Origin: Muribaculum sp.
GTDB taxonomy: Bacteria; Bacillota; Clostridia; Lachnospirales; Lachnospiraceae
DNA: 36,005 nt
Direction: 5' to 3'
Assembly (NCBI GenBank): GCA_023663735.1
Contig: JAMPGV010000026.1
Location: 1-36,005, forward strand
Shown here: in pieces, positions 19,955-22,368 of the stretch
How the letters are laid out: each line of letters begins with the position of its first letter
How positions within the stretch are numbered: position 1 is the first letter of the stretch
Position numbers and translations under genes: made by a program
The notes under the pieces: generated by a model
What the model saw: the letters and a program-made list of their open reading frames with translations, nothing else
Database searches by the model: none
What the model was told of the DNA's origin: nothing

Positions 19955-20851
19955 ATGAATATACGGAATAGGAACATGCGCAAGGCGGCCCCGTTTCTGG
20001 TGGCCGCCGCTTCCGTTTTGTGGGGGCTTTTGTTTTTGTTTGTGAGAGAGTTGAGCGGGGCGGGATTCTCCGCGATGGACATTGTGTGCGTGAGGGCCTA
20101 TGGGAGCGTGCTGTTCCTTTTCCCGGGGCTGTTTGCGGCGAACCGGAAACTTCTGCGGGTGCATTTTCGGGATTTGTGGTGTTTTGTGGGAACGGGCGTT
20201 TTTAGCATCGTGTTTTTCAGTTACTGTTTTTTTAGCAATGTGGAGATTTCCACCGCCGCCTTTGCCTCAATTTTAATGTATACTTCCCCGGTGTGGGTCG
20301 CGCTTTTGTCCGCCATTTTTTTCAAAGAAAAGATCAATGGCAGGAAGGCGGCTGCGCTTGCCATGGCGCTGCTTGGGTGCGTCTTGGTCAGCGGCGTTTC
20401 GGGGGGGATGGATGCGGTAAGCCTCCGCGGTATTCTGCTGGGGATCGGCTCCGGCGTCGGCTACGGACTCTACAGTATCTTTGGAAGATTTGCCCTAAAC
20501 CGCGGCGCGCATCCCATGACAGTGGTGGCTTATACGTTTCTGTTTGCCTGTGCGGGGGTGCTGCCCTTTGTGCGGATTTCTTCTATTGTAAGTCGCTTTG
20601 TCGAAAATCCCCCGCTGCTGCTTCCGGCGCTTGCCATGGCGTTTTTCACCACGGCGCTGTCGTTTTCTCTCTACACGCTCGGGCTGCGTTATCTGGAACC
20701 CGGCCGGGCGGCGGTGCTGGCGACGCTGGAACCGATCGTCACAGCGCTGGCGGGGAGTGTTCTATACAAAGAGACGATCAGCGCGGCAATGGGGGCGGGA
20801 ATCGTGCTGGTGCTGGCGGCTTCCGTGCTGATTGTGAGGGCGGGAGAATGA
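19955..20851 (+). CDS. EamA/DMT-family transporter
   Basis: A 298-residue protein with ten predicted spans in two EamA repeats (about residues 10-140 and 155-290). The C-terminal repeat holds the family pattern LGLRYLEPGRAAVLATLEPIVTAL. Such proteins export metabolites or amino-acid-like compounds; the substrate is unknown. AGGGGAA lies 11 nt before ATG 19955. No terminator is evident before the S10 promoter; only a weak A-rich ATTGTAT/ATACAAT pairing follows the stop codon. Confidence 0.88.
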   Translation: MNIRNRNMRKAAPFLVAAASVLWGLLFLFVRELSGAGFSAMDIVCVRAYGSVLFLFPGLFAANRKLLRVHFRDLWCFVGTGVFSIVFFSYCFFSNVEISTAAFASILMYTSPVWVALLSAIFFKEKINGRKAAALAMALLGCVLVSGVSGGMDAVSLRGILLGIGSGVGYGLYSIFGRFALNRGAHPMTVVAYTFLFACAGVLPFVRISSIVSRFVENPPLLLPALAMAFFTTALSFSLYTLGLRYLEPGRAAVLATLEPIVTALAGSVLYKETISAAMGAGIVLVLAASVLIVRAGE

Positions 20852-20859
20852 TTGTATGC

Positions 20860-20928
20860 AAAAAAATACAAAAAAAATACAATTCCGGTAAAAAAATGCT
20901 TGCAAAGCAGCCTAACTCCATGTATACT
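20860..20928 (+). promoter_or_regulatory. Strong promoter of the S10 operon with A-tract upstream element
   Basis: TTGCAA (20900-20905), a 17-nt spacer and TATACT (20923-20928) form the core. Upstream are three A tracts of 7, 8 and 7 A (20860-20866, 20870-20877, 20890-20896), an UP-element-like arrangement expected for a growth-regulated ribosomal promoter. The start site would be near 20935. Confidence 0.8.
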
Positions 20929-20965
20929 AGATTTTGCTGTGGCATGATAGCTTTGAAGCGTGAGG

Positions 20966-20997
20966 TTGCTGATAATCAGCAATGGTTATCAGGTTTT
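20966..20997 (+). promoter_or_regulatory. Mutually exclusive hairpins early in the S10 leader
   Basis: TTGCTG/CAGCAA (20966-20971 with 20977-20982, loop ATAAT) competes with CTGATAA/TTATCAG (20969-20975 with 20986-20992, 10-nt loop). The second form is followed at once by GGTTTT, giving it a weak terminator-like look. Such alternative pairing is typical of attenuators; this function is inference. Confidence 0.4.
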
Positions 20998-21010
20998 CCG
21001 TGGAGCGAAT

Positions 21011-21232
21011 GTCAAGTTAGGAAACTGACGACAAGTCACTGTACCAGGAGAAGGAATTCTCCGATGGTCTGTCCGGACAGAGCGGGTGAAAGCCCGGCAC
21101 CGGCGGAAACGATGTGTAGGTTGAGGACCCGAGATACGTTGCTAAGGGTTCGGGACACACACGGGAGAGTGTACAGTCACCGCTTGTCGTACTGAAAGCA
21201 GTCGGCCGTCTGAAAGCAGAGCGCTGGGACGG
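21011..21232 (+). ncRNA. Highly structured 5' leader RNA of the S10 operon, family not identified
   Basis: An outer helix closes a multibranched domain: ACGACAAG (21028-21035) with CTTGTCGT (21183-21190), continued by ACTGTAC (21038-21044) with GTACAGT (21171-21177). Inside are GGAGAA/TTCTCC (21047-21062), the palindrome TCTGTCCGGACAGA (21068-21081), CGGG/CCCG with loop TGAAAG (21083-21096), CCCGA/TCGGG (21128-21154) and ACAC/GTGT (21159-21172, competing with the outer helix). Before it is GTCA-GTT/AAC-TGAC (21011-21029). After it come two hairpins with the same CTG-AAAG-CAG motif (21191-21202 and 21206-21232, the latter closed by CCGTC/GACGG). There is no credible ORF. It ends about 30 nt before the rpsJ ribosome-binding site. 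I considered a ribosomal-protein autoregulatory leader and a group II intron domain I remnant. No domain V or maturase is present. Confidence 0.7.
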
Positions 21233-21277
21233 AAGAAGGCTTTGAATCAAAAGTGCGAAAAGGAGGCGACTTTTTTT

Positions 21278-21595
21278 ATGGCAAGTCAAGTAATGAGAAT
21301 TACACTGAAAGCTTATGAGCATCAGCTTGTGGATGCATCTGCCAAGAAAATCATCGAAACGGTAAAGAAGAACGGTTCTCAGGTGAGCGGACCGGTTCCC
21401 CTTCCCACCAAGAAGGAGGTCATCACGATTCTGAGAGCGGTACACAAGTACAAGGACTCCAGAGAGCAGTTCGAGCAGAGGACCCACAAGAGACTGATCG
21501 ACATCATCGCGCCCACCCAGAAGACGGTGGATGCGCTGCAGAGACTCGAGATGCCCGCAGGTGTATACATTGACATTAAGATGAAGAATAAGTAA
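21278..21595 (+). CDS. rpsJ: 30S ribosomal protein S10 (NusE)
   Basis: The 105-residue protein begins [25 protein letters not shown] and contains [35 protein letters not shown] split across its length, diagnostic for S10. S10 belongs to the 30S head and also acts as NusE in antitermination. AGGAGG (21261-21266) precedes the ATG by 11 nt, including a T-rich stretch. It is the first gene after the structured leader. Confidence 0.98.
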
Positions 21596-21625
21596 AACAA
21601 GCAAACCTCTACTTAGACGTATGAA

Positions 21626-21664
21626 CGGATTTTGGAAGCGCCGCTTCCGCAACGTAAAGATCCG
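21626..21664 (+). other. Intercistronic hairpin between rpsJ and rplC
   Basis: GGAAGC/GCTTCC (21634-21648, 3-nt loop) is enclosed by CGGAT (21626-21630) and ATCCG (21660-21664). It fills the middle of the 101-nt gap before the rplC ribosome-binding site GGAGG. Confidence 0.5.
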
Positions 21665-21696
21665 GTCCGCTATGTAGAACAAAAACGGAGGTAAAC

Positions 21697-22368
21697 ATGA
21701 AAAAAGCAATTTTGGCAACAAAAGTCGGAATGACTCAGATTTTTGGCGAGGACGGAACGCTGATCCCCGTAACCGTACTGCAGGCAGGCCCCTGTGTGGT
21801 AACGCAGATTAAGACCCCTGAGAACGACGGTTACAGCGCGGTGCAGGTCGGTTTCGTGGACAAGAAGGACCGGTATGCGGACGGCAGCAAGGAAGTGATC
21901 CACAGACATGGCGTGAACAAGGCTGAACAGGGTCATTTCAAGAAGGCGGGCGTAAGCTCTAAGCGTTATGTGCGGGAGCTGAAGTTCGAGAATGCGCAGG
22001 AGTACGCGCTGGGCGCAGAGATCAAGGCCGATATCTTTGAGACGGGCGACAAAGTGGACGCCACCGCGATTTCCAAAGGTAAAGGATTTCAGGGCGCAAT
22101 CAAGAGACTGGGACAGCACAGAGGTCCTATGAAGCACGGTTCCAAATTCCATCGTCATCAAGGTTCCAACGGTGCGTGTTCCTCGCCCAGCCGTGTGTTC
22201 AAAGGCAAAGGGATGCCCGGACATATGGGATGTGTGAAAGTAACCGTTCAGAATCTTGAGGTGGTCAGAGTGGATGCCGACAAGAATCTTCTTCTGGTAA
22301 AGGGTGCAGTACCCGGAGCGAAGAAGGCGCTGGTGACCATCAAAGAAACCACGAGAGTGGAAGCATAA
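21697..22368 (+). CDS. rplC: 50S ribosomal protein L3
   Basis: A 223-residue L3 with the N-terminus [19 protein letters not shown] and the family pattern [26 protein letters not shown], split here by position near residues 148-175. L3 is an early 50S assembly protein near the peptidyl-transferase centre. GGAGG lies 6 nt before ATG 21697. Confidence 0.98.

Follow-up and report, generated by a model that had tools for sequence, protein, structure and literature searches.

A conserved domain apparently inserted into the S10 leader of Lachnospirales, with two mutually exclusive pairings near the Shine-Dalgarno sequence

In the leader upstream of rpsJ, the gene for ribosomal protein S10, a known ribosomal protein leader motif is followed by a conserved domain that appears to be inserted between this motif and the Shine-Dalgarno (SD) sequence. 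The leader was analyzed in a contig assigned to Muribaculum sp. (JAMPGV010000026.1, positions 1 to 36,005; this whole stretch of 36,005 nt is called the window). By comparison with related sequences, the Rfam motif RF03136, the inserted domain, a covarying closing helix, a covarying hairpin (P5) and a conserved complementarity to the SD were identified. We cautiously favour the reading that this is an autoregulatory ribosomal protein leader with a bistable, SD-masking switch specific to the order Lachnospirales. To our knowledge, the control of the S10 operon outside the gamma-proteobacteria is poorly understood. The coordinates of the features are given in Table 1.

Ten proteins of the window were scanned, and S10, L3, L4, L23, L2, S19, S3 and the downstream SecY passed the NCBIfam cut-offs. 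As originally predicted, a leader of about 340 nt lies between a sigma-70-like promoter match (20900-20928) and the ATG of rpsJ (21278); one match to this promoter pattern was found, compared to 0.8 expected in shuffles. Unusually strong structure had also been predicted, and indeed none of 100 dinucleotide shuffles folds as well as the leader (z = -3.13). The spacing from GGAGG to the ATG is 11 nt (21267-21277), including a well-conserved run of about seven T, and long SD spacing is recurrent in the order. A reading frame of 43 aa (21064-21195) is located inside the leader insert, and by eye no counterpart was seen.

Table 1. Features of the rpsJ leader and their positions in the window
Feature	Position	Strand	Basis
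Sigma-70-like promoter match, TTGCAA / 17 nt / TATACT	20900..20928	+	consensus match only
Candidate 5'-terminal helix, 5' strand GGCAU (partner AUGUC, 21009-21013)	20941..20945	+	sequence
RF03136, S10-Clostridia ribosomal protein leader, hairpins P1 and P2	20945..21034	+	91.1 bits
Closing helix, 5' strand: CGACAAG, UC, ACUGUAC	21029..21044	+	covariation; window coordinates
Variable part of the inserted domain, hairpins GGAGAAGGAATTCTCC (21047) and GGGTGAAAGCCC (21084) window-specific	21045..21156	+	folding; string search
b1 = ACAC, candidate stem of a pseudoknot with GUGU (21169-21172) as possible partner	21157..21160	+	sequence comparison
b2 = ACGG, possible partner in relatives: a CGUG-like strand further upstream (P4)	21161..21164	+	sequence comparison
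c = GUGU, possible partner of b1	21169..21172	+	sequence comparison
Closing helix, 3' strand: GUACAGU, CACCG, CUUGUCG	21171..21189	+	covariation; window coordinates
Anti-SD strand AGUCACC, partner of the closing helix (AGU) or of GGCGACU at the SD	21175..21181	+	covariation; folding
Hairpin P5, 5' strand CGUACU (partner AGUGCG)	21188..21193	+	covariation
Two copies of CTGAAAGCAG (21192 and 21210), looped out by P5	21192..21219	+	string search; folding
Hairpin P5, 3' strand AGUGCG	21252..21257	+	covariation; window coordinates
SD GGAGG (21262-21266) within GGAGGCGACU	21262..21271	+	alignment; folding
Conserved T run ahead of the ATG, seven here	21271..21277	+	alignments; sequence
rpsJ (30S ribosomal protein S10)	21278..21595	+	NF001861.0 and TIGR01049.1 over cut-off

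At gathering scores, RF03136 is the sole family found by cmscan with Rfam 15 in the whole window. The match reaches 91.1 bits (gathering score 35.1), covers the complete model (positions 1-81 of 81) and is located upstream of rpsJ, like the family itself; at E <= 5 the region 20850-21300 contains only one further match, RF02211, which is a chance match. The Rfam scan suggested as a check thus revealed a known family. The original statement of no recognised family does not apply to the 5' third of the leader (20945-21034), and it stands for the approximately 240 nt downstream, which are conserved and unmatched in Rfam. Among 41 genomes of relatives, 29 carry RF03136 at E <= 0.001 and 28 exceed the gathering score; across the phylum the same threshold gives 106 of 249 genomes, 61 of them over the gathering score. 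According to PMC7247131, an S10 leader of Firmicutes was already known and many examples from Clostridia were added; its name suggests that RF03136 is the family deposited from this study.

The Rfam model includes neither the insert nor the SD pairing, and it stops at CGACAA, with which the closing helix of the insert starts. Its lower P2 stem (UGUC/GACA) uses the GACA that belongs to the closing helix here. A switch by competition between these two pairings was considered and dropped because L024 and L225, in which the GACA stretch is changed, keep the closing pairs and not the P2 pairing of Rfam (by eye). The candidate helix at the very 5' end, GGCAU/AUGUC, lies outside the model save for its first base and shares GUC with hairpin P2. 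Related leaders carry GACAUU/AAUGUC as its counterpart (by eye).

For comparison, 80 rpsJ loci were collected, plus RF03136 loci of relatives. The leaders of most relatives run on past the Rfam model in the order CGACAAGUCACUGUAC, variable part, GGACACACACGGGAGAGUGUACAGUCACCGCUUGUCGUACU, variable part and AAAGUGCGAAAAGGAGGCGACUUUUUUUAUG, with variations. From 20 sequences, a covariance model named R1 (145 positions, 20 pairs) was built for the 3' domain; at E <= 0.01 it recovers 91 of the 97 sources, L007, L019 and L050 only in part. In the order, R1 was found in 170 of 246 genomes and in 148 of the 185 good-quality ones, with one match listed per genome and one exception with two; drafts and strict filters may account for some of the 76 genomes without a match. 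Across the class 27 of 196 genomes showed a match, the 20 from the 188 genomes outside the order being weak (27 to 48 bits), and across the phylum 4 of 299, namely the window's own genome and three from the same family. One genome, G489, carries two S10 leaders (L189, L190), each with rpsJ; its contamination estimate is 5% and it may be a mixed assembly. That homologues stay at rpsJ was borne out at all 92 R1 loci checked in the order (a set that includes the window and a few duplicate-fetched genomes) and at all 20 R1 loci elsewhere in the class.

At the RF03136 loci outside the order (L147-L172), the motif directly abuts the SD in 23 of 26 cases (by eye), and for this reason the domain looks inserted between motif and SD. 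The minimal leaders carry a second hairpin, typically GUCCG..CGGGCGA, after which SD and start codon follow at once (by eye). L150, L158 and L164 are the three of these 26 loci with an insert, and closing helices in a similar place with different sequence were seen in L150 and L158 (GCGACUUUAAGAC/GUCUUAAGUCGC; GCGACACGGGGAA/UUCCCCUGUCGC; all by eye). Conservation is seen in the closing helix, in the ACACACGG..GUGUAC motif, in the hairpin CGUACU/AGUGCG and in the SD region. Three rpsJ leaders (L066, L072, L085) are strongly reduced or degenerate, with little left beyond an ACACxCG..GUGUA motif.

A closing helix had been predicted at 21028-21044 with 21171-21190. It is present at 21029-21044/21171-21189 and covaries; it consists of two parts (CGACAAG/CUUGUCG and ACUGU/ACAGU) with a 2 x 5 internal loop. 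P5 is a short hairpin adjoining the SD, its first two bases are common to the closing helix, and changes on both sides occur in 4 of its 4 modelled pairs. The proposed covariation test on rpsJ-upstream alignments was run with 93 sequences picked for diversity (A3) and with a set reaching across the class (32 matches from 39 sources), and closing helix and P5 covary in both. Both alignments were fitted to the R1 structure and relatedness inflates the covariation counts, which for closing helix, b1.c and P5 jointly amount in A3 to 96.9% standard pairs, both-side changes in 11 of 20 pairs (3.4 shuffled) and 22 both-side-change cells (6.9 shuffled; 0/500 shuffles as high), and in the 32-sequence set to 92.6% paired, 10 of 20 pairs (4.5 shuffled) and 25 cells (8.0 shuffled; 0/500 as high). 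Control helices slid along the 93 sequences were only 3-52% paired. The topmost closing pair, which is shared with the SD pairing (A11-U124), is broken in 14 of 30 cells of the 32-sequence set; 13 of these failures are class loci outside the order, which are also without the AGUCACC strand (by eye). An RNAalifold consensus for 25 short domains aligned with MAFFT reached only -7.6 kcal/mol and was set aside.

Within GUACAGUCACCGCUUGUCG, the 3' strand of the closing helix, lies AGUCACC, which has an alternative partner in GGCGACU (21265-21271), a string that overlaps the SD core GGAGG by two bases at the 3' end of the core. In the compared leaders, complementarity of this strand to an SD-overlapping GGNGACU is conserved. 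In the resulting SD helix the first T of the T run (21271) pairs with A21175. SD pairing and upper closing helix are mutually exclusive and clash at A21175-U21177. In A3, which was not fitted to the anti-SD pairing, 98.2% of its cells are paired, compared to 97.0 +/- 0.2 in shuffles. Both-side changes were found in 2 of 6 pairs (0.2 shuffled), a value reached by 4/500 shuffles; further pair types were as high in 8/500 and the covariation score in 0/500, with two-sided changes in this helix being few (4 cells). Departures from the common anti-SD and SD strands occur in 20 of 93 rows. Ten of them are changed in one strand only, nine on the SD side (GGCGGC, with a U.G wobble) and L191 on the anti-SD side (with wobbles), and the other ten are changed in both strands with complementarity kept. 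Examples of two-strand changes are AGUUUC/GGAAC (L231), AGCACC/GGGGCU (L024) and ACAGUC/GGCUGU (L025, L230). The weakest SD duplex, with -3.0 kcal/mol, is AGGG/CUCU in L022 and L222, where the closing pair at U124 is lost and the SD pair is kept. Cognate SD duplexes have a mean of -5.71 kcal/mol, compared to -4.78 kcal/mol when re-paired, and 72 of 20000 permutations are as good; this comparison uses 20 distinct strand combinations from 154 sequences, which are not independent and include three hand-entered rows.

For the window, the best folds have -123.2 kcal/mol unconstrained, with the closing helix, and -123.0 kcal/mol with the SD helix enforced. The pair probabilities are 0.32 for the closing helix and 0.63 for the SD helix, or 0.08 and 0.86 with slightly different ends. 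Among the 135 of 158 sequences covered by the bistability scoring (23 unscored), both pairings reach a probability of at least 1% in 105, and a probability above 0.5 is reached by the closing helix in 100 and by the SD helix in 23. The thermodynamic model thus favours the closing helix in most sequences (median 0.89 vs 0.07). No clean contrast between an open and a closed SD was obtained between the states of the window leader with the folding models: enforcing the closing helix leaves GGAGG unpaired with a mean probability of 0.41, enforcing P5 as well gives 0.24, the enforced SD helix gives 0.29 and the free fold 0.30, and the unconstrained best fold places the SD inside a local hairpin (loop 21265-21270). 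From the covariation and folding results, the two pairings, which exclude each other, both look selected.

An autoregulatory ribosomal protein leader, as had been suggested, is probable, since the structure covaries and is located at rpsJ in all R1 loci checked; a covarying RNA structure in the 5' UTR of a ribosomal protein operon is one of the features expected of such leaders. From the two pairings we infer that an operon-encoded ribosomal protein may control the leader and that the masked state would be the repressed one. Formation of the closing helix would free the SD from the AGUCACC strand, and rpsJ would be translated. If the closing helix were disrupted, AGUCACC would pair with the SD and initiation would fall. 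A ribosomal protein of the operon in excess over rRNA would bind the RF03136 motif and shift the leader to the masked state, the putative ligand being S10, L4 or another operon protein. The minimal leaders of other Bacillota, with the motif against the SD, may act by simple steric blocking, to which Lachnospirales would have added a structural switch.

In autoregulatory ribosomal protein leaders, similarity to the rRNA binding site is frequent and not required. The suggestion of an rRNA mimic was not supported at the sequence level: neither R1 nor, once the 22 string-by-rRNA tests are taken into account, any of 11 consensus strings gave a significant match in 16S or 23S rRNA. R1 reached at best 7.7 bits (E 0.25) in the 16S and 23S loci of a genome of the same genus, and the best string, CGACAAGTCACTGTAC, was found with 3 mismatches in 23S, with 24/3000 shuffles as good, which is not significant after 22 tests.

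It is possible, if on the whole rather unlikely, that the insert began as a transcription attenuator with a leader-controlled terminator, of which the Lachnospirales would have kept the frame and mostly lost the terminator. Of 27 class loci tried from outside the order, 25 were usable, and 8 of these have a terminator-like hairpin with a U run after P1, compared to 0.8 expected in shuffles. In the order, 134 loci were tried and 107 were usable, of which 11 show the same pattern (1.4 expected); however, the pattern scan is crude, two of these 11 matches (L072, L085) precede the leader, and L203 and L205 are near-identical. The window insert is without a terminator-like site, and the sole one in 20800-21750 is the P1 hairpin (1.1 expected). 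As these hairpins exceed expectation after P1, attenuation is retained as a possible ancestry. The loci outside the order with a terminator-like region after P1 are L106, L108, L111, L164, L243, L246, L247 and L248.

The core motif of the insert, ACACxCGG-4 nt-GUGUAC, allows b1.c (ACAC/GUGU) along with the helix of b2 and the upstream strand. In 131 anchored sequences, several of which are visibly mis-anchored (e.g., L010, L014, L045, L046 and L091), all four pairs of b1.c are standard in 110, while 16 have three such pairs and 5 have fewer, and the upstream helix P4 is better than shuffles (p < 0.05) in 52, with a median p of 0.085. The core is unanchored or missing in 27 of 158 sequences, some of which have kept the closing helix. 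A pseudoknot conserved throughout the order was dropped as a claim, since in the wider set the part of the motif that pairs with the upstream strand differs between families; for the same reason an H-type pseudoknot in the insert is kept as a possible candidate only.

Around this core, the inserted domain could also form the binding site of a second ribosomal protein or another ligand, with the SD pairing being secondary, which we regard as doubtful. It would be built round the H-type pseudoknot (a.b2, b1.c), with the ACACACGG..GUGUAC core as recognition element. The ACACxCGG..GUGUAC core belongs to the most strongly conserved stretches, outside the order too (by eye), and the counts for b1.c and P4 given above are in line with such a site. 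L150 has both stems in unrelated sequence (GCUGG/CCGGC and UAAAC/GUUUA; by eye), and L072 and L085 retain little beyond this core. However, b1.c is mostly invariant and one of its four pairs is broken in the 14 sequences with c = AUGU, some families pair the upstream strand with b1 instead of b2, which is a plain hairpin, and the core is absent or unanchored in the sequences mentioned. Equally tentative is a two-part regulator, in which an old motif would bind a ribosomal protein, and a pseudoknotted insert would sense a second signal and let one strand alternate between its closing helix and the SD; the SD helix would then be kept imperfect deliberately. None of the 8 sequences with GUCGCC carries the perfectly pairing GGCGAC, though GGCGAC is present in 80 of 154 sequences.

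A constitutive structure to which no regulator binds, acting on mRNA stability, RNase processing or a fixed translation rate, appears improbable. It would agree with the preference of the thermodynamic model for one state in most species and with the nearly equal SD accessibility in the states. The distribution of RF03136 across the phylum argues against it, as do the compensatory changes that preserve two mutually exclusive pairings.

Several features of the original description belong to the variable loops. The strings GGGTGAAAGCCC and GGAGAAGGAATTCTCC fold as hairpins with pair probabilities of at least 0.85 and were found in no other fetched locus, which indicates that the striking features are largely a window-specific expansion of these loops. 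The R1 domain of the window has 253 nt and is the third longest of the 91 matches. Two hairpins with a CTG-AAAG-CAG motif had been described; the string does occur twice (21192 and 21210), but the hairpins do not form, with a CUG/CAG pair probability of at most 0.002. CTGAAAGCAG was also found in three other loci (L040, L044 and L125). The closing helix encloses three hairpin loops in the best fold (21052, 21087 and 21133) instead of four or more hairpins. Leader, promoter match and closing helix thus stood up, in contrast to these two sets of hairpins. A degenerate group II intron, with which the leader shares being a large structured RNA and short strings such as GGGTGAAAGCCC, can practically be dismissed: no group II model matches at E <= 5 (cmscan), GGGTGAAAGCCC is confined to the window among the fetched loci, the leader is single-copy in its genome apart from a 16-base match (assembly 87% complete), and it is located at rpsJ in all loci checked. 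Of the earlier interpretation, the large, conserved, rpsJ-linked leader was retained, and both the group II intron and the absence of any recognised family were given up.

A second conserved and covarying hairpin, without an Rfam match, is located between rpsJ and rplC (21612-21674). In relatives its core reads CUAGnAUG-stem-CCGCUGUAG, followed by the SD of rplC; the window has the variant CUACUUAGACGUAUGAAC..GGUCCGCUAUGUAG. A CCGCUGUAG-like string with at most 2 mismatches occurs in 136 of 161 gaps, in a set that repeats the window. The strict CCGCUGUAG form was found in 67 of the 161 gaps (59 distinct) and the window's own form, TAGACGTANGAAC, in 15. Covariation was analyzed in those 44 of the 59 distinct strict forms that have a length of at most 44 nt, the window copy not being among them. 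In these gaps 98.0% of the cells are paired (79.2 shuffled), with 72 both-side-change cells (22.1 shuffled) and a covariation score of 0.565 (0.187 shuffled), and for each value 0/500 shuffles were as high. The number of pairs with both-side changes, 5 vs 3.8, is not unusual (82/500), and the three outer pairs are invariant. In 21560-21740, Rfam yielded nothing at E <= 5 but two chance matches to lncRNA families. The hairpin is a candidate for a separate leader of rplC and the genes after it.

Among known systems, the L4-controlled S10 leader of E. coli is likewise long and structured, lies before rpsJ and controls the operon (PMC10931766). A leader of this type gave no Rfam match at E <= 5 here, a result whose weight depends on Rfam including such a model. 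For Peptostreptococcaceae, the rpsJ motif RLC-47-1 was reported in 2024 and suggested to be a ribosomal leader, and like the present leader it lies in the 5' UTR of an S10 gene of Clostridia (PMC11109978). RLC-47-1 may overlap the class-level form of the inserted domain. Beyond the cited papers, no longer or switch-like S10 or rpsJ leader and no rplC leader were found in the literature covered, which includes few subscription papers.

In view of the hairpin on the rplC side, control of S10 in these bacteria may be separate from that of the remaining operon. In a proteome study of C. difficile (PMC3933415), rpsJ of this species is predicted to be its own transcription unit and E. coli-like L4 control is doubted, which fits a separate control of S10. 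The Rfam model of the Clostridia leader ends where the conserved inserted domain starts. If the SD-masking switch is correct, a minimal ribosomal protein leader would have gained a switch through a domain inserted between the site that binds the protein and the one that binds the ribosome, and the two states would be separable by well-defined compensatory mutants.
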